63,057 nt of DNA from contig NZ_ML660067.1 in NCBI RefSeq assembly GCF_007004665.1, forward strand, positions 1-63,057. Reading direction: 5' to 3'. Below the pieces are notes generated by a model. It did no database searches, was not told the origin of the DNA, and was given only the letters and a program-made list of their open reading frames with translations. This document shows, piece by piece, positions 3,194 through 20,092 of the stretch. The position numbers and the translations under genes were made by a program. The stretch comes from Denitrobaculum tricleocarpae (GTDB taxonomy: Bacteria; Pseudomonadota; Alphaproteobacteria; Kiloniellales; Kiloniellaceae). The stretch's first letter is position 1, and each line of letters opens with the position of its first letter.

Positions 3194-4099
3194 TCACTCA
3201 GCCTTGGGATCCGGCAGGGTGCCGAGCGCACTGCCGGCAGCGCGCACGACGCCGCCGATCTCGGTCAGCTGATCCTGCAAGGGGTTGGTCTTGCGCCAGA
3301 CCATGCCGATGCTGCGCGAGGGACGCGGGTCGGGAAAGCGGGCAACCGAGATCGCGGCGGAGCGGATTTCGAGCGGCAGGGCCATCTCCGGGATGAGGGT
3401 CACACCCAGGCCCGCGCCGACCATCTGCACGAGCGTCGAGAGCGAAGAGCCCTCCATGAGGTTCTGGGGCTCCGACCCGCTTGCCTCACAGAAAGACAGA
3501 GCCTGATCGCGGAAGCAATGCCCTTCCTCCAGCAGCAGAAGGCGCATCTCCAGGAGCTGTTTGGGACTGGGGACAGGTTTGTCGGCATCCGCCTCCGGGC
3601 GCACCAGAACGAAATCCTCGCTGAAGAGCGCGAACTCGCGCAACGCGGGTTCGGAGATCGGCAGGGCGACGATCGCCATGTCCAGGCGCGATTCCAGCAG
3701 GTCCTCGATCACAACCTCGGTCATCGCCTCGCGCAGGCGCAGGTCGAGTTCGGGAAAGCGGCTCATAATGAGCTTGATCATCTCGGGCAACAGATAAGGG
3801 GCGACCGTGGGAATGACGCCGACACGCAGACGTCCGGCCAGCGGCCCCTGGGCCGCGCGCGCCAGGTCTTGAAGTTCGTCTACGGCGCGGAGGATCTCAG
3901 TGGCGCGCCGCGCAAAGTCTTCCCCGAGCGGGGTCAGATGTATATTCCGCACGGCGCGTTCCACCAGAGGCGCGCCGAGCATCGTCTCCAACTCCTTGAT
4001 TTGTATGGAAAGTGCCGGCTGGGTGATGGCGCAGGCTTCGGCCGCCCGGCCGAAATGCCCCGCACGCGCGAGGGCATCGAAATAGCGCAGGTGCTTCAT
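3194..4099 (-). CDS. oxyR: OxyR, LysR-type peroxide-sensing regulator
   Basis: About 301 residues from the ATG at 4099 (another ATG at 4114 adds five). An N-terminal LysR winged helix (HFGRAAEACAITQPALS, about 15-35) is followed by a substrate-binding-like domain with the OxyR redox pair in EEGHCFRDQALSFCEASG. These two Cys correspond to C199 and C208 of E. coli OxyR, which form the peroxide-induced disulfide. It is divergent from katG across about 190 bp, the usual arrangement for OxyR controlling catalase-peroxidase. I could not find a full OxyR consensus (ATAG-N7-CTAT repeats) between them, but there is a strong Irr-like palindrome. Confidence 0.93.
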   Translation of the reverse strand: MKHLRYFDALARAGHFGRAAEACAITQPALSIQIKELETMLGAPLVERAVRNIHLTPLGEDFARRATEILRAVDELQDLARAAQGPLAGRLRVGVIPTVAPYLLPEMIKLIMSRFPELDLRLREAMTEVVIEDLLESRLDMAIVALPISEPALREFALFSEDFVLVRPEADADKPVPSPKQLLEMRLLLLEEGHCFRDQALSFCEASGSEPQNLMEGSSLSTLVQMVGAGLGVTLIPEMALPLEIRSAAISVARFPDPRPSRSIGMVWRKTNPLQDQLTEIGGVVRAAGSALGTLPDPKAE

Positions 4100-4171
4100 G
4101 GTCAATCCAATCATAAGTATTTTTTATCACACCGGTAAATTCTTTCAACTTCTCTAAATGTCCCATAGTGA

Positions 4172-4250: not shown

Positions 4251-6458
<2,208 letters not shown>

Positions 6459-6756: not shown

Positions 6757-7950
6757 TTAGATGCCCGGCTTTCTGGCGAAGGACACGAGTGAGAAGGACG
6801 CGGCGTCGTTCAAGAACCTGCCTTTGCTTTTCTGCAGATACACTCCGAACACTCCGACAGCGAAGAGTATGGTTAGCGAATCGATCGGCATCAGGCTGTC
6901 GATGTAGGTAACGCCGCCCACCATCGCCCAGAGCACCGCGGCGCGGAGGTAAGCGTGTGTCAGAGAGAGGCGTTGCCGGTGTTTGTCGAGCGCTTGCAGA
7001 CCCAGGAGCCTTTTGCCCGGTGTGGCGCGCCAGATTGAAGCCTCGCAGGGAGGCGCCAGAACCACATAGAGCGTAAAAATCACGGTGGGCCAGTCATATT
7101 GCGCTGAGAGGCCGAAAAGAAGATCCAGCGGATATACGATCAGGGCAAGCAGGACCACATCAGCCAAAAACGCGAGTCCCCTGACGAAAGGCAAAGACTC
7201 CGCCTCACCATCGAAGAGGGCAGCCCCCGTTTTCCTTTCTTCTTCAATGTGGAGCGCGGCGCCCCCTTTCACACCGAATTTTTTCGATGCCTGTTGTGGC
7301 ACGTAATCCTTCAAATCATTGAGAAACTCAAGATCTTCCGCGCTGTAATCATAACCGTAAAGCAGGTCGTAGTAACGGTTGCTCCACCCGAAGATGCTGT
7401 CCAGGTAATGCAGGACAGCAGACCGCAGCATTGCCGGTTCGTTCCGTTGCTCTTCGCAGGCTTTCCAGTGCGCAATCACACGCGCAAACACAGCATCGCC
7501 GAGGGAGGTGCGGAAGTCCTCGGTCAGAAGATGTTCGTCCTGCTCGAAGGCTTTCCAGTTCTCAACGAAGTAATGATCGTTCTTCGAGGCAAGAAGCGCG
7601 TCCATGTGGTCCAGAAGATACTGAAAGTCGGGCGGCGCTGTGCTTTCGGCCGGTGTTTCGTCCTGCAGGCTCTCGCTCTGCGGATCCCGATCGCCCGACT
7701 CCGGCTCGGAGTGTGACGCCTCGGACACCCCGGGACCGGCGCTGGAAAGCGCTTCATCCTTAGTGTCATCCTGAACTGCGAGATCGTTTTCCACCAGATA
7801 GCACGCAAACTTGTAGGCCTCGTGGAGCTGCTGAAACGCGACAGAATCCTCGTCAGGCCGGGTCTGCTTCAGCTTGCGGGCATAAGCGCGCTTGACCTCG
7901 CGCTTGTCGTCCGTGGGCGCAATCTCCAAAACCGACCAGGGCGCCGTCAC
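6757..7950 (-). CDS. J-domain-like protein with C-terminal RDD membrane domain
   Basis: 397 residues. The first 50 resemble a truncated J domain (PWSVLEIAPTDDKREVKRAYARKLKQTRP), but the HPD tripeptide that stimulates Hsp70 ATPase is not intact: the equivalent reads RPDED. An acidic, serine-rich linker (about 65-110) precedes a helical middle. The C-terminus (about 255-397) is an RDD-type integral membrane domain (VRGLAFLADVVLLALIVYP, then ATPGKRLLGLQALDK). The start overlaps the stop of the HscC-type chaperone by 4 bp, so the two are translationally coupled. By analogy to the E. coli hscC/djlC pair it is probably a membrane-tethered cochaperone. Confidence 0.75.
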   Translation of the reverse strand: MTAPWSVLEIAPTDDKREVKRAYARKLKQTRPDEDSVAFQQLHEAYKFACYLVENDLAVQDDTKDEALSSAGPGVSEASHSEPESGDRDPQSESLQDETPAESTAPPDFQYLLDHMDALLASKNDHYFVENWKAFEQDEHLLTEDFRTSLGDAVFARVIAHWKACEEQRNEPAMLRSAVLHYLDSIFGWSNRYYDLLYGYDYSAEDLEFLNDLKDYVPQQASKKFGVKGGAALHIEEERKTGAALFDGEAESLPFVRGLAFLADVVLLALIVYPLDLLFGLSAQYDWPTVIFTLYVVLAPPCEASIWRATPGKRLLGLQALDKHRQRLSLTHAYLRAAVLWAMVGGVTYIDSLMPIDSLTILFAVGVFGVYLQKSKGRFLNDAASFSLVSFARKPGI

Positions 7951-9638
7951 TGCAACGGCCCCGCTTCCATGGCATCAAGCAGTTCCTTGAGTTGCTGGCG
8001 AGCCTTCGTGATTTCAGTCGCGTTCTGAGCGTCCAGGACGCGTTCAAAGTTCGCGAGGAGCTCACCCAGCATGGTCCGTTCGTTACCGAGATAAAGGCTG
8101 TAGAGATGCTCGCCCCGGGACAGCAGCTCTCTATTCTCTTCCTGTTCGCGCGGGTGAAACTTCAGCGCCGCCAGTCTCTCTTTCGACCTTTCCAGCTCTT
8201 CGGCGCTCAGGGTGCCGGGCGACTGTTCGATGACATGATTGATGAGTGTGCCGGTGGAATTGACCTTAACGTCGACTTCCAGCAATCCGTTCATGTCATA
8301 GCTAAAACGCAGATCGAAGGTCTCCTCGCCCGCTTTGTTGGGTGGCACCTTCACATCGATCGCGCCCAGAAAGACATTCTTTTCCACCAGCCTGTGTTCG
8401 CCCTGATAGACGTTGACCTGGAGCTGTTTCTGATTGTTTTCGACGGTCTGCAGAGTCTCGACCCGGCTGGCCGGGACGACTGAGTTCCGCTCGATGATGG
8501 GCAGGAAATAACCCGCACGGCCCGAACCGCCGGGATCGACCACTTCGGTGCCGAGGGTGTAAGGGCAAACGTCGGTCAGGACGACGTCGTCGAGAGACTG
8601 GTCCTTCGCCTTCAGACCCGCCTGCACCGTCGCGCCCATCGCGATAGCGAGATCCGGGTCCAGATGACTGGAAGGGATCCGGCTGAAGAGCTTGCCGACC
8701 GCATTCCGGAAGATCGCCATGCGCGTCGCACCACCGACCAGCAGCACTTCCTCGATATCCGCAAGGGGAATGCGCGCATCCCGTAATGCTTGCTCGATCG
8801 GATTGCGGACGCGCAAAAGGAGCGGCGTAACACAGGTTTTAAACCATTCACCCGAGGCTTCGAATTCGATCTCACCGCCTGCCAGAGTCAAGGCCAGACG
8901 CTTCGGCCAAGGCGCATTGATATTGCATTTGACCTCCTCAAGCGCCTCGAAGAGCTGTTGAAGCTCCTGTTTGGTAAGCTGCTCCCGCTCCAGGTCATTT
9001 TTTGCCAGGACGTCGCCGACCAGAGCCTCGAGGAAGTCTTCGCCACCCAGGTAGTTGTCCCCTGCGCTGGCATGGACTTCCATGACACCCTCGAAGTACT
9101 CGATCACCGAAACGTCGAAGGTGCCGCCGCCCATATCGAGGACGGCAAAGATCCCTTCCTTGCGCTCATGCAGTCCGTAAGCCAGCGCCGCGGCGGTCGG
9201 TTCATTGATCAGCCGCCGCACCTTCAGTCCGGCGATCTCGCCGGCCTGTTTGGTGGCGTGGCGCTGGTTGTCGTTGAAATAGGCCGGAACGCTGATAATC
9301 GCTTCCTCGACGGTCTCCCCCAGATAGGTCTCGGCGTCTTCCTTCAGGGACTTCAGGACAAACGCACTGAGTTCCGTTGCCGAGAAACGCCGGTCATCGA
9401 GCTCAACTTCATGTTTCGTGCCCATCAGCCGCTTGAAGACCGCGACTGTGGCGTCGGGGTGCGTCATAAGCCGGTGTTTTGCGGTTTTGCCGACAATAAT
9501 GTTCTTCCCGCCATCCAGCCCGACCACTGACGGCGTCAGCAGATCGCCGTGGCGGTTCTCGATCAGCCTGGCCGCACCCTCCTGCCACACGCCGCAGGCA
9601 GAGTTCGTCGTGCCCAAATCAATGCCGATAATCGCCAT
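7947..9638 (-). CDS. hscC: HscC-type Hsp70 chaperone
   Basis: 563 residues, shorter than DnaK (about 640) and equal to HscC. The ATPase domain shows phosphate-1 GIDLGTTNSACGVW, phosphate-2 LDMGGGTFDVSVIEYF, the adenosine motif VEEVLLVGGATRM-like (IEEVLLVGGATRMAIF) and INEPTAAALAYGL. The substrate-binding domain is present (DVCPYTLGTEVV, NSVVPASRVETLQTV), with a short C-terminal lid. HscC is a specialised Hsp70 with its own J-protein, not the housekeeping DnaK. It is transcribed first in a two-gene operon with the J-like/RDD gene. Its native clients are unknown. Confidence 0.88.
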   Translation of the reverse strand: MAIIGIDLGTTNSACGVWQEGAARLIENRHGDLLTPSVVGLDGGKNIIVGKTAKHRLMTHPDATVAVFKRLMGTKHEVELDDRRFSATELSAFVLKSLKEDAETYLGETVEEAIISVPAYFNDNQRHATKQAGEIAGLKVRRLINEPTAAALAYGLHERKEGIFAVLDMGGGTFDVSVIEYFEGVMEVHASAGDNYLGGEDFLEALVGDVLAKNDLEREQLTKQELQQLFEALEEVKCNINAPWPKRLALTLAGGEIEFEASGEWFKTCVTPLLLRVRNPIEQALRDARIPLADIEEVLLVGGATRMAIFRNAVGKLFSRIPSSHLDPDLAIAMGATVQAGLKAKDQSLDDVVLTDVCPYTLGTEVVDPGGSGRAGYFLPIIERNSVVPASRVETLQTVENNQKQLQVNVYQGEHRLVEKNVFLGAIDVKVPPNKAGEETFDLRFSYDMNGLLEVDVKVNSTGTLINHVIEQSPGTLSAEELERSKERLAALKFHPREQEENRELLSRGEHLYSLYLGNERTMLGELLANFERVLDAQNATEITKARQQLKELLDAMEAGPLQ

Positions 9639-10985: not shown

Positions 10986-13259
10986 TCAAGCCGAAGCGAT
11001 GGCTTCCAGACCGGCGAGCGTGGGTTTCCGGGCCAGGTCCTCAGCGGCAAGCGCCGTGATCAGATACTTCTGAGCCTCGGCACTCTGGCGGCAGACCTCT
11101 GCCAGATTACTGGAGAAGCCTTCCTCCAACAGGATCGCAATGCTCTGCGTCAGTTCTTTGGGGGACCCGCCCGCCAGGACCCGCTCCATGGCCGCCTGAC
11201 GCACGAAAGAAGAGTCATCGCGCAAAGCCAGAAGAACACGCTCCCCGGGCAAGGAGGCAATGGCGCGTAAAGCGGTGGCGCGCACCAGGGCATCGGCATC
11301 GTCGAGCAGGGCTTCCAGTTCCTTTTCGCCGTGCGGCAGGCATTTGCCAATCGCCTGAGCCGCATAGCCCCGGATCAGCGGGTTTTCATCACCCAGGCCC
11401 TTGATCAGTGCCGGGAGCAGACTCTCCGAGAGCGGCAGGACTTCAGAGCGCTGCACGAGAGTCGCATAAGCTGCGATCCGAAGAGTCAGATCGGTCGCCT
11501 CGGCAGCGTCGCAAAAGGCCTGCTCGAGATCTTCGCCGTGGCAGTCGGCAGAAACGCGCAGGGCCACCAGACGCAAATCCATGGCGAAGCTGTCCGGGCC
11601 GTCGACCGGCACCCGGCGCTTACCCTTGCCCCCCTTTTTCGAAGAAGCCTGCGGCGCATCACCGGAACGCGGACTGACGATCCGGTCGCCGGCGTCCGTA
11701 GAGATTGTCTGGATCGCCGCGAGGGTCGACTTGGGAAAGGTCACGTCGATGACGTTACTCTCGCCGTCTTCCGCCCGTTCCCGGTCTCCTGCACTTTCCC
11801 GGTCTTCGGGCTTCTCCTGGGCCGGGTCACATTCGATCGCTTCACCCCGCGCTTTCCGAGCCTGGACTTCGTCTTCGGAGAGAATATCGCCGTCCTGCGA
11901 GATCGTGACCCGATGGGATGCAATGTCCTCGACCTTAGAGGCTTCGACCGGGCTTTCTTCGCTCTCGGCCCGGACAGGTTTCGCTGCTTCTTCAGTCGCA
12001 AACTGCCCGGATATCGCGCCCACCAGAGCCGCGCGCGCGGACTGCGCAACGGCATCGTCCTCCGCTTTGGAGAGGGTGGCCAGCGAGCTGAGCGCCGAGG
12101 CGCGGATCTGTCTGGTGGGATCGCTGACGCAGGTTTTCAGTACCGCGATGACCGCATCCAGCGGCAGATCCTTGAGCGCACGCAGGGCGGCAATACGGAC
12201 CTCCAGTGCCCGCTCCGGGTCGCAAACAACTTCACACAGCGGCGCATGGGCCGCGGTGCCACAGGCGCGCGGAAGAAACTTGGCGCAGGTCGCCGCCAGC
12301 GTCTGACCCGACATCATCATCCAGGCCTGCATATTGGCAGCCAAATCTTCGGAGATTTGAAACTCCGGCCTGGAGAGCACCACCTCCAGCGCGGCAGACC
12401 GAACCCCCTCACTGCGATCCTCGAGAGCCATCAAAGCGATATCACGGCGCGTCTCGGCGAAGGTCTCCACCAGGGCCTGGCGCACGAGGTCACTCGGATC
12501 ATCCCGCAGAAGGCGCCCGACCCAGGAGCTCTCGGAGTCCAGGCAACTCAGCGCCAGGCGGCGCACCTGAGGACTGGAATCCTGAACCAGGAGCTCGACC
12601 TGTGTTATCAGGACGTCACTGTTGGCTTTGCTCAGGGCGATGAGCGCCTGCTCCCGAACCCGCGGATTGCTGTCGCGAAGCAGGCTGAGAAGTGTGGTAA
12701 TCCCGCTCTCGGGAATTTTGGCCAGTGCCGCGAAAACCACATCATCGAGCTCCTGGCCCATCTCGTCGTCGCGGGCCAGCAGCATGTCCTGGACCGCCTC
12801 TTGCGCGGCCATCTCCCCCAGAGCGGCGATCGCGGCAAGCTGGACGTCGAGCCAGTCGTCCCACATGCCGGCCTCGTCTTCCCAGGCGACATCGTGGTCG
12901 CAGCGGTCTTTGGACAAGGCCATCAGGAGCGGCAGGGAAGCGGCATCCTTCACGGCGGCCAAGGCTTCAATCGCCAGGATTTTGACTTCCTTCACAGGGT
13001 CGCCGAGCAGGGACCTGCGCAAGGCGTCGGCATCCTCGGGCCGGGCGCAGCGGACCAGCGCATACATCGCATCCGTCCGCACGTCGGGGTCCTCATCGAG
13101 GAGCGCCTCGACCAGATGAGGAGCCGCGGCAGCATCGCCGAGCGCTGCAAGTGCGCGTGCGGCCGCGCAACGCACCACCTCGTCTTCCGCTTTCAACCGG
13201 CGCAGAATGATCTCGACAGCTGCGGAAGAAACTTTCGGTGGCAGGTTTTCGGCGATCAT
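10986..13259 (-). CDS. HEAT-repeat protein
   Basis: 757 residues from the ATG at 13259, which has a very strong site (GAGGAGGAG, spacing 9). An upstream in-frame start at 13343 is unlikely. Residues 10-420 are tandem alpha-helical HEAT repeats (EVVRCAAARALAALGD, PQVRRLALSCL, RQIRASALSSLATL); a charged disordered linker (about 425-560) leads to a second HEAT block (about 580-757). Such proteins are scaffolds; some assist maturation of bilins or metal cofactors, but nothing here assigns a partner. It lies directly downstream of the iodate-reductase-like operon on the same strand, separated by a terminator, so a role linked to that operon is possible but unproven. Confidence 0.85.
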   Translation of the reverse strand: MIAENLPPKVSSAAVEIILRRLKAEDEVVRCAAARALAALGDAAAAPHLVEALLDEDPDVRTDAMYALVRCARPEDADALRRSLLGDPVKEVKILAIEALAAVKDAASLPLLMALSKDRCDHDVAWEDEAGMWDDWLDVQLAAIAALGEMAAQEAVQDMLLARDDEMGQELDDVVFAALAKIPESGITTLLSLLRDSNPRVREQALIALSKANSDVLITQVELLVQDSSPQVRRLALSCLDSESSWVGRLLRDDPSDLVRQALVETFAETRRDIALMALEDRSEGVRSAALEVVLSRPEFQISEDLAANMQAWMMMSGQTLAATCAKFLPRACGTAAHAPLCEVVCDPERALEVRIAALRALKDLPLDAVIAVLKTCVSDPTRQIRASALSSLATLSKAEDDAVAQSARAALVGAISGQFATEEAAKPVRAESEESPVEASKVEDIASHRVTISQDGDILSEDEVQARKARGEAIECDPAQEKPEDRESAGDRERAEDGESNVIDVTFPKSTLAAIQTISTDAGDRIVSPRSGDAPQASSKKGGKGKRRVPVDGPDSFAMDLRLVALRVSADCHGEDLEQAFCDAAEATDLTLRIAAYATLVQRSEVLPLSESLLPALIKGLGDENPLIRGYAAQAIGKCLPHGEKELEALLDDADALVRATALRAIASLPGERVLLALRDDSSFVRQAAMERVLAGGSPKELTQSIAILLEEGFSSNLAEVCRQSAEAQKYLITALAAEDLARKPTLAGLEAIASA

Positions 13260-13470
13260 CACAGCGGACTCCTCCTCATCATACTTGCTAGAGGGCGGCT
13301 CGTTCAGGTTCCTGCCTCTCGTGGCAAGAACGATCAGCCTCATTATTTTTATCTGGCAGAGCGATCCGTGATCTTGACGGACCTTGGCAAGAATAATCGC
13401 ACTGCAAGAGCAGATCGCATTTCACAACGCGGCGAAAACACCGTCTCGGCCTTAACTCAGTCTTCGTGGA

Positions 13471-13516
13471 AACAAAGGGCGGTCTCTCATAATCCGAAGA
13501 TCAGGAAAGACCGCCC
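13471..13516 (-). terminator. Rho-independent terminator of the idr-like operon
   Basis: On the minus strand GGGCGGTCT pairs with AGACCGCCC (plus-strand positions 13508-13516 and 13477-13485) around an inner partly paired section with a TTCG loop. TTTGTTT follows. It begins 11 bp past the idrA stop. Confidence 0.85.
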
Positions 13517-13527
13517 CCGGATACAAA

Positions 13528-16203
13528 TCAGGCAATATCGCGACGCGCGAAGGACATCGAGCGGAGCTGCTTCTTGTAGGGGCTCTCACCCATACGCCGC
13601 ACCTGGCCGATACCCATCTTGTAGTTATAGTTGCCGCTGATCCAGTCGACGACCCGACCGGCCAGAGCATTTGCCGGCTGGCTGGTGTGCAGGAAGTCCA
13701 TGTAGCCGACCCCCTTCTTCACCGCCGGCGTCACCATGGCAACCGCCGTAATCGCCGCTTCGGTCAACTCGATATGACCATTCTCCAGCAAGGAGGCGAA
13801 GTCGAAGTCATCCCCCTCGATGCCGATGATCGTATCTTTCTGAACCGGGATCCGGTCGGAGTAGAGCATGACGTAGTCCCCTGATTCGACACCGTACATC
13901 TCGGCATCTTCGGGATGCAGCTCGATCCAGTTTTCCGGCCAGCGCTGGACGATGTACGGGCGGCGGCGGTCATCGTAACCGGACTGCCAACGCTCGTTGA
14001 TCCGGCCTGACGTCATCCAGATCTCACCTTCACGCGGTTTCAGCCACTCCCAGTAACTGGAGAAGAGACTCCAGGGCGCTTTCTGAAGATTGCACTTGCC
14101 GGTCTGGGTGTTGAAATGCGTCAGCTTCTTGTTGAAGACCGTGGGACCGGCAGGGCCATTCTCCGGCAGGACGCGATTGACGTCATGCAGGCGTTTGGTT
14201 TCCTCCAGCGAACCGTCGGCCAGCATCAGGACCGGGCCCTGAATGCCGTTGGTGCCGAACTCACCGAGCTTTTCGTGAAGGGTCTTACCTTCCCGATGCG
14301 CGGCAACCTTGACCGGATGGAAGTCCTTGCGCGATCCGCGTGACCGGCGGGAACCTTCCTCGAGGACCTCGTTGGAGTCCTTCCAGTCGAAGCCCTCGAA
14401 GCCCATCTTCTTGGAGAGCTGAGCGATGATCCACCAGTCCGGCTTGGCTTCGCCCGGCGCATCGTAGAACTTCGGATAGAGCCGGATCCGCCGCTCGCCG
14501 TTGGCACGGGTGAAGGTTTCCTCGCCCCAGCCCGACGCCGGGAACACGATATCCGCGTAGCGGGCCCCGATGGGATCCACCAGATAGATATCCTGGTCCC
14601 ACACCACCATGCCGCCGGAGTCCGCGCGCTTCTTCAAGGTCTCGATAATCTCGGCCTTGTCGTAGGATTGGACCTGATGCGGGTTCCGGGTGGTCAGTTC
14701 ATCGAACTTGGACTGCAGAGACTGCGAGCCAAGCATGGCCTGAACCCAGGTGGTGCCGATAACGTGGGCCAGACGCGTGTGGCCCGACATGAGGTAGCGG
14801 TCGGTGTCCATGGCGCGCCGGCGGCGTCCCGGCAGTTTTTCGGGGCTCTTGTTGCGCGGATAGGAACCGCCACGCAAACCGCCACGCTGGTGCCCGCCCG
14901 CACGGCCGATCACCTGTCCGGGACGGCCGCCACAGCCGCAGATGATGCCGAGCGACGAGATGGCATTGGTGTTGCCGGTGTTGTTGGACCAGTAGAAGCC
15001 CTTCTCGATCATGATCGAGGTCTTGGGCCGCGTTCCGTCCGCTTTCGGCTTCGCCATCCATTCGGCGGCTGTATAGATCTTCTCGACATCGATCTGGGCA
15101 ATCTCGGCGGCTTTTTCAGGCACGGCATAGTCCTGTTCGAGCAGCCATTTCTTCCAGTCCTCGAAACCGTCGGTCTGGAACTTGCCCCAGGTCGTGCGCC
15201 ATTGCCAGGGCGTGTTACGGGTGCCCTGTCCGAAACCCGACGAACTTTCCCACTTGGAGTTGACCCAGTTCTGGATCCACTCCGCGTCTTCCCAGCCCTT
15301 CTCGACGATCACACGGGCAATCGCCAGAACCACGGGCAGATCGGTGCCCGGCTGGATATCGATCAGCATGCCGCCGTTCTTCTCGGCATAGGCGACACCG
15401 GCGGTCCGGCGCGGCAGAAGGAAGATGGTCTTCTGTCCGTTCTGGATACCCGGCATGATCCAGTCCGTGAAGAGGATCGTCTTGGACTCGTAAGGGTCCG
15501 TACCGCACATCAGCAGCGTATCGGCGTCACGCCAGTCCTCGTAACTGGGTCCGAAGTTATCGAAACCGGCATCGCGGAAACCCGGCGTGGAGGTCACGTC
15601 GGAGGGCGTGTCGTGGAAGGTGAAGTTGGCGGTGGAGATATTCCGCAGCGCATACTTGGTGATGGCGTAGGTATTCTCCATGTAACCGTAGGAGAAGGTC
15701 TTCACGCCGTAGGCATTGGTGCCGTGCTTTTCGAGCACGTGCTTGCCGACCTCGGCAGCGATATCCAGGGCAAAGTCCCAGGTCACCGGCATGAGAACGC
15801 CGAACATGCGCACCATGGGGGACTTCAAACGGTCACGCGTCGGGGTCTGCGGATTGTAGACCTTCTGCGCGATGGCACCGCCGCGGATCGAAGAGTTGCC
15901 CCGCGGGTTAACGTGCTTCGTATCCTTGTCGGGAATGATCACCACATGGTGGGGCTCGCCGTTGTGCAGCACGATATTGTGCTGAGTCGGCGCGACCCAG
16001 GCACCGAGCGGTTCGACGGGAAAATCCTCGCCGAAGGCGTTCTGATCGGCGGCGGGACCGCCGACCTTTCCGCCACGGACCGGCCAGCGGTAAACCTTGT
16101 AGCCGCAGGCCACGACGCAGTAGTCGCACGCCGTGGAAATAACGTCCGCGTCGGGCGGCGGCAGGGGAATCGATTCCTCGGGGACATAATATGGGGTGGA
16201 CAT
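13528..16203 (-). CDS. idrA: Iodate reductase catalytic subunit IdrA (AioA-like molybdopterin oxidoreductase)
   Basis: 891 residues, DMSO-reductase superfamily, arsenite-oxidase (AioA) branch. C26-x2-C29-x3-C33 plus S104 (71 residues on, in NSSIRGG) gives the AioA-type [3Fe-4S] site with Ser in place of a fourth Cys. R434 and H438 in GRAGGHQRGG match the AioA active-site Arg/His. The segment at 198-221 that corresponds to the AioA arsenite-binding His/Glu region has neither residue, which argues against arsenite oxidation. There is no signal peptide, so export presumably rides on the Tat signal of the Rieske partner. ATG at 16203 follows GGAGGCGAACCC. It is the last gene of an operon with two di-haem peroxidases, the hallmark of idrABP1P2. 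Substrate IO3- is inferred from this context. Confidence 0.85.
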   Translation of the reverse strand: MSTPYYVPEESIPLPPPDADVISTACDYCVVACGYKVYRWPVRGGKVGGPAADQNAFGEDFPVEPLGAWVAPTQHNIVLHNGEPHHVVIIPDKDTKHVNPRGNSSIRGGAIAQKVYNPQTPTRDRLKSPMVRMFGVLMPVTWDFALDIAAEVGKHVLEKHGTNAYGVKTFSYGYMENTYAITKYALRNISTANFTFHDTPSDVTSTPGFRDAGFDNFGPSYEDWRDADTLLMCGTDPYESKTILFTDWIMPGIQNGQKTIFLLPRRTAGVAYAEKNGGMLIDIQPGTDLPVVLAIARVIVEKGWEDAEWIQNWVNSKWESSSGFGQGTRNTPWQWRTTWGKFQTDGFEDWKKWLLEQDYAVPEKAAEIAQIDVEKIYTAAEWMAKPKADGTRPKTSIMIEKGFYWSNNTGNTNAISSLGIICGCGGRPGQVIGRAGGHQRGGLRGGSYPRNKSPEKLPGRRRRAMDTDRYLMSGHTRLAHVIGTTWVQAMLGSQSLQSKFDELTTRNPHQVQSYDKAEIIETLKKRADSGGMVVWDQDIYLVDPIGARYADIVFPASGWGEETFTRANGERRIRLYPKFYDAPGEAKPDWWIIAQLSKKMGFEGFDWKDSNEVLEEGSRRSRGSRKDFHPVKVAAHREGKTLHEKLGEFGTNGIQGPVLMLADGSLEETKRLHDVNRVLPENGPAGPTVFNKKLTHFNTQTGKCNLQKAPWSLFSSYWEWLKPREGEIWMTSGRINERWQSGYDDRRRPYIVQRWPENWIELHPEDAEMYGVESGDYVMLYSDRIPVQKDTIIGIEGDDFDFASLLENGHIELTEAAITAVAMVTPAVKKGVGYMDFLHTSQPANALAGRVVDWISGNYNYKMGIGQVRRMGESPYKKQLRSMSFARRDIA

Positions 16204-16215
16204 GGGTTCGCCTCC

Positions 16216-16800
16216 TTAGCCCTGAAGATTATCGAAACGGCCGTAGATCAGGCCAAACATGCCGACGGCGTAGATGTCGTCGCCCTCGAGCTCCAAAAGC
16301 ACCTGAGGCAAGGATTGATAAGCCTGGCCGGAAATAAAGATGCCGTGACGCGTGAGGTCGAAGGTGGTCAGGTGCAGGGGACAGGGTCCCAGCGCCTTAT
16401 CCGCCGCCTGGTAAGTGCCCTGCAGAGGGCCGCCCTGATGGGTGCAGGTGTAGTTGAACGCAACCACATCCTTGTCGGGTCCAAGCCCGCCACCGGCTTC
16501 CTTGCCGAGTTTGACCAGGATCGATTCCGCGTAAAGCCCCTCATCGGGATACTCGAAATCGAAAGGTTCATCGACCTCCAGGCTCGAAAGCTTGGTGATG
16601 AACTTCCTGGGATAGGTCGCAACCACTGCCGGCGTTTGCGATTGTACCAGACCTGGAATACCGACCATCACAACGGTGGTCGCAATACCGCCTGAAAGCA
16701 GGAAACTGCGCCGGTTCATCAGACAGGACCGGGTGCCGGCTTTCTCGGCTTCGCCGTTCTCGCCGTTGATCGCGGCGGCTACACGGGGATCGATCGTCAT
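16216..16800 (-). CDS. idrB: Iodate reductase Rieske subunit IdrB
   Basis: 194 residues. A Tat signal (NRRSFLLSGG, twin Arg at 30-31) sits behind a 27-residue hydrophilic extension; the ATG at 16800 with AGGAGAGGG supports the longer form. The Rieske [2Fe-2S] ligands are C119-x-H121 (CTHQGG) and C140-x2-H143 (CPLH). Both Cys of the usual Rieske disulfide are missing (G and L instead), as in some AioB proteins. It should receive or pass electrons between periplasmic carriers and the molybdenum subunit. It lies 12 bp upstream of idrA and 15 bp downstream of the peroxidase gene. Confidence 0.88.
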   Translation of the reverse strand: MTIDPRVAAAINGENGEAEKAGTRSCLMNRRSFLLSGGIATTVVMVGIPGLVQSQTPAVVATYPRKFITKLSSLEVDEPFDFEYPDEGLYAESILVKLGKEAGGGLGPDKDVVAFNYTCTHQGGPLQGTYQAADKALGPCPLHLTTFDLTRHGIFISGQAYQSLPQVLLELEGDDIYAVGMFGLIYGRFDNLQG

Positions 16801-16815
16801 CTCGTCCCTCTCCTC

Positions 16816-17946
16816 TTAGTTTTGAGCCGCTGTGGGCAGCGGTTCCATTACCGGAAGCTCCGGCTCATCCATCAGAATCTCATCGCCCGAGAGTGACTCG
16901 AGAAACGCGACCAGATCGTCGATTTGGCTATCGCTGAGACCAAGCGGTTTGATCAGCGGGCTCTTGGTTTTGGCAAACTCGTTCGTACCGCCGCCCTCGT
17001 TATAGAAGACCACGACATCGCGCAAAGTCTCGATCATGCCGTTGTGCATGAAGGGGAAAGTGTACTTTGTGTAGCGCAGGCTCGGGGTACGGAACTTGCC
17101 CTTGTGCTGCGCATCCTTGCTGCGGAAGTACAGGCCCGGGTCGTCTTTGGTGTTGCGGTACAGCTCTTCGTTCGAACCCTTGGAATAGAGTTGGAAACGG
17201 AAAGTGATCTGCGCAAGTTCGTCTTCTTCCCAGCCGGAATAAGGCGGCACCCCGAGATTGTGGTACTGCTGATCGGATAGCAGCGGCCCATTATGGCAGG
17301 CGACGCAGTTACCCTGGCCGGTGAAGACCTCGAGGCCGCGTTTCTGCTGATCGGTGAGCGCTGCGTCGTCGCCACGCATATAGTTGTCGAAGGGCGTGTC
17401 CGTCTGCACGAGCGTGCGTTGGAACGCGGCGATCGCCATGTAAGCGTGCCGGACGTTGGGCCAGTCATCACCGAACACATCGGCGAAGCGCTCGCGATAC
17501 TCCGGGACGAACGCGAGGCGCGCCTCCATCATATCGTCTTCGCCGTTGCCTGCGACACCGCCGCGGGCAGCCGAACGTGCCTGTGCCTCAAGAGACTTCG
17601 AGGCCCCGGCCAGGAAGAGGTTGTTGTAGTAGGCCGAGTTAATGATGGTCTGGCTGTTGCGCCAGTGCGTCGTTCCGGGATAACCGAAGCTGATCGGCGC
17701 CTGAACGGCCCAGCCTGCCTCGGGCAGATGGCACGCGGAACAAGGCATACCGTAGTTGCCCGAGAGGATCGGATCGAAGAACAGCATTTTGCCGAGCTCG
17801 ATCTTTGCGTCCGTCATGGGATTGTCGGCCGGAATCGGCGGCGGGCCAAGGGCCGCCAAGCCTTCTGGTCGATGGCCGTCCGCCAATGCCGGCACCGTTA
17901 GGCACGAAGCAAGCATGGCGGCAGTGAGTGTCCTGGATAAGGTCAT
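16816..17946 (-). CDS. idrP1: Di-haem cytochrome c peroxidase-family protein IdrP1
   Basis: 376 residues from the ATG at 17946, chosen because GGAGG lies six bases upstream; an ATG at 17958 overlaps the previous stop and has no site. A Sec signal (1-23, ending LADG) is followed by two c-type haem motifs, CSACH (69-73) and CVACH (214-218), in the MauG/CcpA layout with SGNYGMPCSACHLPEAGW and GKFRTPSLRYTKYTFPFMHNG. In known iodate reducers the two peroxidases are thought to remove H2O2 made during iodate reduction. P1/P2 numbering here is positional only. Confidence 0.85.
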   Translation of the reverse strand: MTLSRTLTAAMLASCLTVPALADGHRPEGLAALGPPPIPADNPMTDAKIELGKMLFFDPILSGNYGMPCSACHLPEAGWAVQAPISFGYPGTTHWRNSQTIINSAYYNNLFLAGASKSLEAQARSAARGGVAGNGEDDMMEARLAFVPEYRERFADVFGDDWPNVRHAYMAIAAFQRTLVQTDTPFDNYMRGDDAALTDQQKRGLEVFTGQGNCVACHNGPLLSDQQYHNLGVPPYSGWEEDELAQITFRFQLYSKGSNEELYRNTKDDPGLYFRSKDAQHKGKFRTPSLRYTKYTFPFMHNGMIETLRDVVVFYNEGGGTNEFAKTKSPLIKPLGLSDSQIDDLVAFLESLSGDEILMDEPELPVMEPLPTAAQN

Positions 17947-17957
17947 TGTCGCCTCCA

Positions 17958-19031
17958 TTAATTCTTCGTCTCGCGCCAGTTTTCGATCAGCTCATAACCG
18001 TAGTCATCAGCCCGCCAGACGTATTCGTCCGTATCGAAAGTCTCGCCGCTCAGAGACTGCAGAAAGGCGACCAGATCGGCCTTCTCATCCGCACTCAGAT
18101 CGAGTGGTTTCAGACGCGCATCCTTGAGCGGGTCATCGCCGCCGCCGGCGTTGTAGAAATCAACAACGTCCTCCAGGGTGGCCATGGTGCCGTTATGCAT
18201 GTAAGGCGCGGTCCAGGTCAGTTCGCGCAGAGTCGGCGTCAGGAAGCTGCGTTCGGTGCCGGCAATACGCGTCCGGACCCAGGCGCCCATATCCTGGCGA
18301 AGATTCATGTAGTTCTCGACACCCATAAACTTGGCATAGGTGACGAAGGCCGAATGCCGTTCCGGATCGCTCCAGATGTCGGGATTGTTCGGAACACCGG
18401 TGTTATGCGTCGCATCGTCGGTGTAGCGCGTGCCGGAATGGCAGGCGACACAGCCACCCTTGCCGTTGAAGACGTCCTGGCCCCGCTTCGCCGAATCAGA
18501 GAGCGTACCCTCGTCGATCGGTGCCTTGCGCGACACAATGGTCTTCATAAAGGCTTGCAGCGCGTTCCGCGCTCCACCGTTCGAAGGCTCGCTCATACCG
18601 GCCTTCTTGAACATCTCCACGTAAACAGGATCCTGCTTCATGCGTTCCTGCATGATCCGCATATCCATATTCATCATGTAGGTTTCCGTGATCATCTCAC
18701 GGCTGACGTCGTTCAGGTTGGTGCCCAACCGGCCGTCGTGAAACCAGGCCGCGCGGTATCCCACATTGGCCAGGGTCGGCGAATTGCGGAAGTGAGCAGC
18801 GCCCGTGTAGGCGGCTGAGAGCGCTTCGCCGTCCGTAAAGGCCTTGTCCGGCTGATGGCAGCTGGAACAAGACAGCGTTGTATCCCCCGATAGTCTCGTA
18901 TCATAGAACATCCGCTTACCGAGCTCGGCCAATTCGGGCTTGACCTCCATCGGCTTAAGCTTACCTGAATCTTGCGCAAGCGCGGAGCATCCGGCCAGCA
19001 CAGTACAGGCGAGAGTTAGCATCAGTCTCAT
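17958..19031 (-). CDS. idrP2: Di-haem cytochrome c peroxidase-family protein IdrP2, probable lipoprotein
   Basis: 357 residues from the ATG at 19031 (GGGGAG seven bases before); a TTG two codons earlier is less likely. The N-terminus MRLMLTLACTVLAGC ends in a lipobox (LAGC), so it is probably membrane-anchored in the periplasm. Haem motifs are CSSCH (55-59) and CVACH (194-198), with the family segment FLTPTLRELTWTAPYMHNG. First gene of the operon idrP2-idrP1-idrB-idrA. A perfect Fnr-type box lies 82 bp upstream. It is not a duplicate of IdrP1: the two differ widely outside the haem motifs. Confidence 0.85.
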   Translation of the reverse strand: MRLMLTLACTVLAGCSALAQDSGKLKPMEVKPELAELGKRMFYDTRLSGDTTLSCSSCHQPDKAFTDGEALSAAYTGAAHFRNSPTLANVGYRAAWFHDGRLGTNLNDVSREMITETYMMNMDMRIMQERMKQDPVYVEMFKKAGMSEPSNGGARNALQAFMKTIVSRKAPIDEGTLSDSAKRGQDVFNGKGGCVACHSGTRYTDDATHNTGVPNNPDIWSDPERHSAFVTYAKFMGVENYMNLRQDMGAWVRTRIAGTERSFLTPTLRELTWTAPYMHNGTMATLEDVVDFYNAGGGDDPLKDARLKPLDLSADEKADLVAFLQSLSGETFDTDEYVWRADDYGYELIENWRETKN

Positions 19032-19299: not shown

Positions 19300-19313
19300 T
19301 TGATACAGATCAA
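19300..19313. promoter_or_regulatory. Second Fnr/Dnr-type box, upstream of the regulator gene
   Basis: TTGATACAGATCAA is a second perfect TTGAT-N4-ATCAA site, 56 bp before the ATG of the Crp/Fnr-family gene. It suggests autoregulation or cross-control by another Fnr-type protein. The DNA between the two boxes is markedly AT-rich. Confidence 0.78.
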
Positions 19314-19369: not shown

Positions 19370-20092
19370 ATGGACAAGGTTCCACGCGTTCTATCTATAG
19401 ATACACCGTGTCTTCCCGACTATTCGCCCTGGAATCGACTGTCGGCAGCGAGCCTGTGTGACCTTCTGGACACTGCGACTCCGGCAAATCTATCGCGCGG
19501 CGATGAAGTGCGCTCGGATGTCGGCATCGTGATCTCGGGCGCCTTCGCCGTTCAGCGAGAACTGTCCGACGGACGCAGAGTTCTCTGCAGCCTGTTCCAC
19601 GAAGGCGACCTGGTTGATGTGCGCCGCAGTGAACGGATTCGCCAGGGCAAGCTGATTGCGTTGAAGGACTCGGAATTTCTGATGCTGGATCAAGATCAGA
19701 TCGATGCCTGCATCGCGCAACACAGCGATATCGCCGGTGCTTTCATCACGCAACAGGGCGCACATTTCGCGCGGATGCGCGATCACGTCACAGACCTGTC
19801 CTGCAAGACGCCGTTCGAACGGCTCGCATCCCTGTTGTTCGAATTCAAGCGCTGGCCCGGGCGGCAAAAGAGATCACGGGACGGGGATACCGTGCATATT
19901 CCGATCATGCGGATCGACATCGCCGACTACATCGGGGTCAAAGCCGAGACCGTCAGCCGGGCGATCCGCAAGCTCGAGCAGGAAAAACGCATCGCAATCC
20001 CGACGGCCGACCAGGTTTTCATGATCGATGTCCCGGCCATGCGTCAGATCGCAAACGGCGGCCGTCCCCGGCAATCGACGCGCCGGGCTTAA
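19370..20092 (+). CDS. Crp/Fnr-family transcriptional regulator, putative regulator of the idr-like operon
   Basis: 240 residues. N-terminal cyclic-nucleotide-binding-like beta-roll (about 35-130, ISGAFAVQRELSDGRRVLCSLFHEGD) and C-terminal winged helix (about 160-225). The recognition helix contains VKAETVSRAIRKLEQE; the E-x2-SR signature is that of Fnr-type proteins that read TTGAT. Cys are present but not in the clustered Fnr [4Fe-4S] pattern, so oxygen sensing by that route is unlikely; a Dnr-like haem/NO or other redox signal is possible. It is divergent from the idr-like operon with perfect boxes in between, making it the likely pathway-specific regulator. ATG at 19370 lies a few bases after GGGGG. 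Confidence 0.88.
   Translation: MDKVPRVLSIDTPCLPDYSPWNRLSAASLCDLLDTATPANLSRGDEVRSDVGIVISGAFAVQRELSDGRRVLCSLFHEGDLVDVRRSERIRQGKLIALKDSEFLMLDQDQIDACIAQHSDIAGAFITQQGAHFARMRDHVTDLSCKTPFERLASLLFEFKRWPGRQKRSRDGDTVHIPIMRIDIADYIGVKAETVSRAIRKLEQEKRIAIPTADQVFMIDVPAMRQIANGGRPRQSTRRA

Follow-up and report, generated by a model that had tools for sequence, protein, structure and literature searches.

The window analysed here, a stretch of 63,057 nt from contig NZ_ML660067.1 of Denitrobaculum tricleocarpae (host genome 6.4 Mb, 34 contigs), carries an iodate reductase (idr) locus of the marine alphaproteobacterial branch. The four genes idrP2-idrP1-idrB-idrA are followed by a gene for a HEAT-repeat protein which, in this branch, is co-inherited and co-located with idrA. 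Overall, we think it fairly probable that a marine-branch iodate reductase is combined here with low-oxygen control and a HEAT-type assembly factor. The HEAT gene and a pair of FNR-type boxes are additions to an earlier sequence-only reading of this DNA, whose coordinates and claims were confined to the four genes and their immediate surroundings.

The four idr genes are unbroken open reading frames (ORFs) that form one run on the minus strand (13528-19031; Table 1). The reading frames of idrP2 and idrP1 overlap by 1 base, and the spacings idrP1-idrB and idrB-idrA are 15 and 12 bases, respectively. In family scans, IdrA scores 434 bits against the TIGR02693 cut-off of 359 and contains Rieske_3 3Fe-4S, Molybdopterin and Molydop_binding domains, IdrB scores 117 bits against the TIGR02694 cut-off of 96, and P1 and P2 both match CCP_MauG. 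The Rieske motif CxH...CxxH is present in IdrB and two CxxCH motifs are present in each of P1 and P2, which are 37.6% identical to each other; a published P1/P2 identity is 37% (PMC8801600). Signal peptides were assigned by eye, with a Sec type in P1 and P2 and a Tat type in IdrB, where NRRSFL was judged Tat-like. ORFs, families and cofactor motifs all agree with the set recognised by the sequence-only reading, namely a molybdenum subunit, a Tat-exported Rieske subunit and two di-haem peroxidases. We conclude that the locus is a genuine member of the idr kind, belonging to its marine alphaproteobacterial branch.

The order P2-P1-B-A on a single strand is found in all 69 relatives with P2 on the contig, P2 being fragmentary in two of them. 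The relatives are the best 80 of 162 loci from named genomes, and L059 and L079 come from one metagenome-assembled genome (MAG). The same order is given for Pseudomonas sp. SCT and Denitromonas sp. IR-12 (PMC10989891), the two peroxidase genes always precede idrAB according to PMC8801600, and the gene set with its characteristic P2-P1-B-A order is common to several papers (PMC8692401, PMC10149662, PMC8801600, PMC10989891, PMC10746228). Because the papers give this order as characteristic, and because all 69 assessable relatives share it, the peroxidase-first arrangement was rejected as a distinguishing trait of the locus. The suggestion that one peroxidase is a lipoprotein proved to be a weak call. 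Outside the window, the LAGC lipobox of P2 recurs exactly only in two loci of the same genus (L002 and L003), with loose N-terminal matches in L011 and L037; by eye, the P2 of many relatives has an ordinary signal peptide ending AxA/Q, and window P2 keeps ALA/Q after the Cys. As a conserved feature the lipobox was therefore rejected.

To place the large subunit, an IdrA tree of 59 rows was computed (quick LG+G4; the tool flagged long branches). The 12 AioA rows, including the NT-26, Agrobacterium and Thermus plasmid records, form a clade of their own with a support of 100, and window IdrA lies deep on the opposite side of the tree together with all idr loci. Since the large subunit falls outside AioA with full support, the outcome that the sequence-only reading had held to speak against it, a branching inside AioA, was not found. 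Two proxies stand on the same side as window IdrA: an Aliiroseovarius MAG locus (L025), from the genus of a tested reducer and with a genus group of one genome only, and Azonexus L113, which is SCT-like by its neighbours.

We take Glu203 of the Alcaligenes arsenite oxidase to be a residue of the arsenite pocket, which presumably consists of His, Glu, Arg and His. The equivalent position holds Glu in 12 of 12 AioA rows, Ser in 90 of the 91 rows of the window's branch and Ala in the other one (86 distinct sequences), and Asp in all nine remaining rows (6 distinct). The other three pocket residues, His, Arg and His, are retained in every aligned row, and in window IdrA only the Glu is replaced, by Ser. 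The host genome contains a single IdrA match at E 1e-20, and therefore no separate AioA. Chlorite dismutase was not found in the host genome (0/1; 7 of 14 control genomes were positive), and in the account of PMC8692401 only two of 145 idr genomes have it.

Reading the molybdenum enzyme as an arsenite oxidase, or as some other Aio-like enzyme, has two points in its favour: NCBIfam calls both subunits 'arsenate reductase (azurin)', i.e. Aio, and the closest solved structures to IdrA are those of AioA. However, the NCBIfam large- and small-subunit models, whose cut-offs IdrA and IdrB pass, do not separate Idr from Aio, and the two di-haem peroxidases have no counterpart in the three AioA loci inspected (NT-26, Thermus and Agrobacterium plasmids). 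In addition, an IdrA homologue is the top protein in the iodate-reducing gel band of Roseovarius azorensis (PMC11445184). Given the separate clade and the Glu-to-Ser replacement in the pocket, we rejected an arsenite oxidase identity as highly improbable. Judged by sequence, the enzyme is very likely an iodate reductase, and homology to tested relatives points to iodate as its probable substrate in D. tricleocarpae.

The gene that follows idrA in the window encodes a HEAT-repeat protein. Among the 78 loci in which the idrA end and at least 200 bp beyond it are on the contig, the HEAT orthologue is the next same-strand gene in 75, some of these matches being short pieces at contig ends (the weakest at 42 bits); in four loci its ORF and the idrA stop have 4 bp in common. 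Two of the three exceptions are gammaproteobacteria, in which the orthologue is divergent and lies upstream of P2; in the third, L059, no orthologue was found at the locus or in a search of the genome. The profile behind these locus counts derives from HEAT proteins encoded after idrA, while the genome searches and the ORF clustering ignore position. In the search of the order (61 genomes), a HEAT orthologue occurs in 10 of the 11 genomes with IdrA of at least 74% identity and in none of the 50 others, the miss, G039, having an IdrA fragment only. In the search of the class (385 genomes), 11 genomes have an IdrA of 57% or more; 10 of them contain the orthologue, against 0 of 374 others, and the miss is G118, where idrA is at a contig end. 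The class cut-off is a gap between 69.7 and 56.3 bits that was picked after the scores had been seen, and the Fisher p of 6e-19 applies to that cut; the class searches scored at most two candidates per genome, and weak HEAT orthologues could escape them. In nine IdrA-less genomes, HEAT matches scored 41-56 bits; most of them covered the C-terminal block, and they were counted as generic repeats. The two AioA-only genomes in the class draw were without a HEAT orthologue.

When neighbouring ORFs from 86 loci were clustered without supervision, only the peroxidases and IdrA (76 loci each) outranked the HEAT gene, which came third with 67 loci, ahead of IdrB with 60. Histidine kinase (27), response regulator (21) and Crp/Fnr (20) genes rank lower, and an antisense shadow-ORF cluster (28 loci) between IdrB and the histidine kinase was disregarded. 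Where a genome has both IdrA types (G026), the HEAT gene adjoins the window-type one, and in G344 it is retained 13.5 kb away. Furthermore, Sulfitobacter algicola groups with Kiloniellaceae/Pelagibius in both the IdrA and the HEAT tree (HEAT branch support 92). Since the HEAT tree mirrors this departure of the IdrA tree from taxonomy, the two genes seem to have travelled together. The HEAT protein has no match in 72,556 plasmid records at E 1e-5, and the other PF13646 matches in the host genome, on contigs 20 and 2, are not beside PF00384 genes.

These results bear on the description of the locus as a tight operon with its own terminator. The hairpin downstream of idrA is real (arms 13477-13494 and 13499-13516, -31.1 kcal/mol, z -4.15 versus 200 shuffles), although a consensus terminator scan of the window did not list it, perhaps owing to mismatches in the stem. 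By eye, a strong hairpin between idrA and the HEAT gene is also present in 7 of 12 relatives folded. The linked gene set, on the other hand, probably does not end at idrA but extends to the HEAT gene.

A HEAT companion of idr is apparently unreported. In the text searched, which excludes figures, supplements and most subscription papers, 'HEAT repeat' and iodate reduction were not found paired, and the two papers that contain both 'HEAT repeat' and 'iodate' concern eye or brain disease by title. Nor was 'HEAT repeat' found with 'arsenite oxidase', or beside idr terms among the papers listed; no paper in that text combined HEAT repeats with a molybdopterin oxidoreductase, a chaperone and a gene cluster, and 'HEAT repeat' does not occur in the text of PMC11445184.

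Translation of the HEAT protein probably begins at the ATG at 13259, with GAGGAGGAG in front of it; a further in-frame ATG lies at 13343. An AlphaFold model made with 53 homologues (mean pLDDT 86.6) shows two solenoids, one at about residues 13-422 and the other starting near residue 560 (model numbering), with a linker between them that is largely disordered. In each of the 53 homologues, the Pfam matches are confined to HEAT and related solenoid families. The linker is otherwise hard to align, yet it retains the motif S-T-L-x-A-I (S in 52, T in 51, L in 49 and I in 48 of the 53), and these four residues remain at 90% or more in a set that includes gammaproteobacterial and the deepest forms; such counts rest on alignment columns, and an alignment can flatter a motif. 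Regular expressions for a Trp motif and for STLxAI, which are too strict for variants, match 48 and 46 of 65 full-length HEAT proteins, and the HEAT protein of L133 has neither motif. No signal peptide is apparent by eye, and hence the protein is probably cytoplasmic.

Because it is encoded behind a Tat-exported molybdenum enzyme, is probably cytoplasmic and was found in our searches only together with that enzyme, the leading, still tentative reading is that the HEAT protein may serve as an assembly or quality-control factor for IdrA or IdrAB. Aio operons are described as lacking a chaperone gene, so that an 'unidentified chaperone' may be needed (PMC10609526); the HEAT protein would be a concrete candidate for the factor expected for Aio-type enzymes. 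A more specific version, which we advance with greater reserve, is that it may be the first factor known to be dedicated to maturation, or to Tat quality control, in the Aio/Idr branch of molybdenum enzymes, unrelated to NarJ/TorD, holding apo-IdrA or IdrAB with its two solenoid arms and STLxAI linker. Iodate reductases would then fall into two branches, a marine one that depends on the HEAT protein and an SCT-like one that does not.

Two other explanations of the HEAT gene have to be weighed. It could be a passenger that takes no part in reducing iodate and has simply kept its place beside idrA within one branch, as might be suspected from its much faster evolution (window versus L006: HEAT 38%, IdrA 93%) and from the failure to find it with the SCT-like IdrA branch, which is described as holding the proven respirers (PMC8801600). 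However, the gene follows idrA in 75 of 78 loci from several families, takes up a different arrangement in two gammaproteobacteria and is kept at a distance in G344, and none of the 374 IdrA-less genomes has an orthologue above the score gap. The conserved linker motif, moreover, indicates selection, and we consider a mere passenger unlikely. Alternatively, the protein could be a scaffold for signalling or regulation in an iodate or oxidant response. HEAT repeats are generic protein-binding scaffolds, the regulator genes near idr differ between loci, and iodate induces idr in relatives through some sensor (PMC11445184). Against such a role, the HEAT gene is present alike in loci with Crp/Fnr and with two-component regulators and is placed after the structural genes, and to us this explanation is as improbable as that of a passenger. 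We therefore retain the assembly or quality-control factor as the preferred, if provisional, role.

Low-oxygen control of the operon is plausible from the sequences upstream of idrP2. Perfect TTGAT-N4-ATCAA sites occur only twice in the 63 kb (0.06 expected), both within the 338 bp that separate idrP2 from the divergent Crp/Fnr gene. The ETVSR recognition helix of the encoded regulator presumably reads TTGAT. Of the 20 loci with a Crp gene, 17 have a box that matches at 9/10 or better, versus 14 of the 45 loci without the gene (Fisher p 1e-4, relatedness uncorrected); this comparison covers 65 of the 80 loci, and the list of Crp loci was compiled by hand. A promoter scan gave 1 site versus 2.9 expected. 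In R. azorensis, the idr genes are induced by iodate and by static (low-oxygen) growth (PMC11445184), and the FNR-type boxes would be a testable cause of this known induction. The dedicated Crp/Fnr gene had been put forward as a possible distinction of the locus; it does differ from the two-component regulator of SCT-like islands, but it is common to about 20 relatives.

Other regulators stand near idr elsewhere. The histidine kinase and response regulator genes counted above, with Pfam confirmation on one member of each cluster, lie for example upstream of idrP2 in L010-L032, mostly without a Crp/Fnr gene, and the pair constitutes alternative regulators. L006 has both regulator types. L138 (8164-14616), of the SCT-like IdrA branch, has the same gene order, a divergent Crp/Fnr homologue, a 9/10 box (TTGATTGCAGTCAA) and no HEAT orthologue.

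Whether the reductase supports growth is a separate matter. The claim that this organism can respire iodate is plausible, but it goes beyond the evidence: when three idr-bearing species of marine aerobic Alphaproteobacteria were tested, static cultures reduced 2 mM iodate, but none of the three grew on it anaerobically (PMC11445184). That the locus reduces iodate only as a low-oxygen electron sink, without respiratory growth, would fit these three species well. On the other hand, the host genome encodes NarG and a TorA-type enzyme, both above curated cut-offs, so anaerobic respiration is likely available; from these two reductases, D. tricleocarpae is probably a facultative anaerobe. We regard the electron-sink explanation as a real possibility that falls somewhat short of probable.

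Several points weigh against the combination of reductase, low-oxygen control and assembly factor proposed here. IdrA of SCT, of Denitromonas and of R. azorensis is not part of the trees. Among the four SCT-like rows, only the plasmid ones (L113, L114) have the cytochrome, moaA and sensor/regulator neighbours known from the literature; L138 is without them, and L139 is too short to judge. The Crp/Fnr regulator is without the FNR N-terminal cysteine cluster. Given the strong hairpin between idrA and the HEAT gene, co-transcription is not assured, and the hairpin may lower, rather than abolish, HEAT expression. The HEAT gene was not found in SCT-like genomes or records, and thus iodate reduction itself may not need it; nor was it found in G039, G118, the L059 genome or the 1.7 Mb replicon of Vibrio sp. 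THAF190c that was searched (best score 21 bits). Finally, the 50 matches listed in a fold search of the HEAT model are generic HEAT-type scaffolds with low TM-scores, among which there is no functional pointer, and HEAT proteins do many things.

With these reservations, the system might work as follows. Low oxygen would switch the operon on via the divergent Crp/Fnr-type regulator and the two TTGAT-N4-ATCAA boxes. IdrA, with molybdenum and a 3Fe-4S cluster, and the Rieske protein IdrB would mature in the cytoplasm, where the two-block HEAT protein could provide dedicated assembly or quality control before export. As in published models, IdrAB would then be exported jointly via Tat on the signal of IdrB and, once in the periplasm, would reduce iodate, with c-type cytochromes supplying the electrons; peroxide or other reactive by-products would be removed by P1 and P2. 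The idr system is usually counted as four genes, and the fifth gene would be a marker for the marine alphaproteobacterial branch. Marine iodate reduction affects iodide supply and surface ozone loss (PMC11445184).

Further idr-like genes were noted in other records. The Vibrio sp. THAF190c plasmid locus (L112, 6187-11682) has P2-P1-B-A, unannotated in the record, with an IdrA 65% identical to window IdrA. Two same-genus genomes, G036 and G037, carry a 46%-identical IdrA-like B-A pair (L140, 2940-6174; L141, 10067-13332) with a P1-like gene nearby and no P2 seen, on a separate branch basal to idr that comes with a long-branch warning; G037 additionally has an AioA-clade protein (L148).

In the window itself, a katG-type peroxidase gene and a LysR-family regulator gene lie about 7 kb from idrA, and genes for an Hsp70 protein and an RDD-domain protein lie beyond the HEAT gene (Table 1). 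As parts of the system, the katG-like peroxidase, the Hsp70, the J-like protein and a metallo-beta-lactamase were rejected, since among the 86 loci they recur only in the same-genus L002 and L003.

Table 1. Features of the idr locus and its surroundings, in window coordinates.
Feature	Position	Strand	Description
idrA	13528..16203	-	891 aa; AioA-like molybdenum subunit; CX2CX3CX70S 3Fe-4S motif; by eye without signal peptide
idrB	16216..16800	-	194 aa; Rieske 2Fe-2S subunit; Tat-like signal NRRSFL
idrP1	16816..17958	-	380 aa; di-haem CCP/MauG-type protein; CSACH and CVACH
idrP2	17958..19031	-	357 aa; di-haem CCP/MauG-type protein; CSSCH and CVACH; signal-peptide LAGC of doubtful meaning
HEAT-repeat protein gene	10986..13259	-	757 aa; next gene after idrA
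Hairpin, then TTTGTTT	13477..13516	-	Between idrA and HEAT gene; terminator or attenuator
Perfect FNR/FixK-type box TTGAT-N4-ATCAA	19113..19126		82-95 bp ahead of idrP2 ATG
Second perfect TTGAT-N4-ATCAA box	19300..19313		57-70 bp ahead of crp/fnr ATG
Crp/Fnr-family regulator, divergent	19370..20092	+	240 aa; ETVSR in recognition helix
LysR-family regulator	3194..4114	-	OxyR-like by position
katG-type haem peroxidase	4290..6458	+	Two-domain; Pfam peroxidase
RDD-domain protein	6757..7950	-	J-like N-terminus by eye
Hsp70 protein	7947..9638	-	HscC-like by eye

Compared with known systems, the locus shares with AioAB the sequence family, the 3Fe-4S and Rieske centres and the subunit pair. It differs in that window IdrA is only about 26-33% identical to AioA over most of its length, belongs to the other clade and has the pocket Glu replaced, and in its two peroxidases, which the three plasmid AioAB loci lack. 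With the idrABP1P2 islands of Pseudomonas sp. SCT, Denitromonas sp. IR-12, Azoarcus sp. DN11 and Aromatoleum sp. TC-10 it has in common the four genes, their order, the cofactor motifs and a P1/P2 identity of about 37%. Window IdrA is about 49-54% identical to the SCT-like rows compared; Azonexus L113 serves as the stand-in for the islands themselves. Two-component genes, cytochrome c551 and moaA are frequent accessories in the clade of proven respirers (PMC8692401, PMC10149662, PMC8801600, PMC10989891, PMC10746228); in place of such island accessories, the window has a HEAT gene and, divergently oriented, a Crp/Fnr gene, and its 63 kb gave no homologue when compared with the sensor, sigma-54 regulator, c-type cytochrome and moaA of Azonexus. 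The idr clusters of R. azorensis, Notoacmeibacter marinus and Aliiroseovarius sediminilitoris agree with it in class and gene set, and the Aliiroseovarius MAG locus L025, in the window's clade, has a HEAT gene 65 bp after idrA. Finally, NarJ/TorD chaperones are cytoplasmic, all-helical proteins encoded with their enzyme. The HEAT protein may have an analogous role, but it matches no such family, and its modelled fold is a HEAT solenoid.

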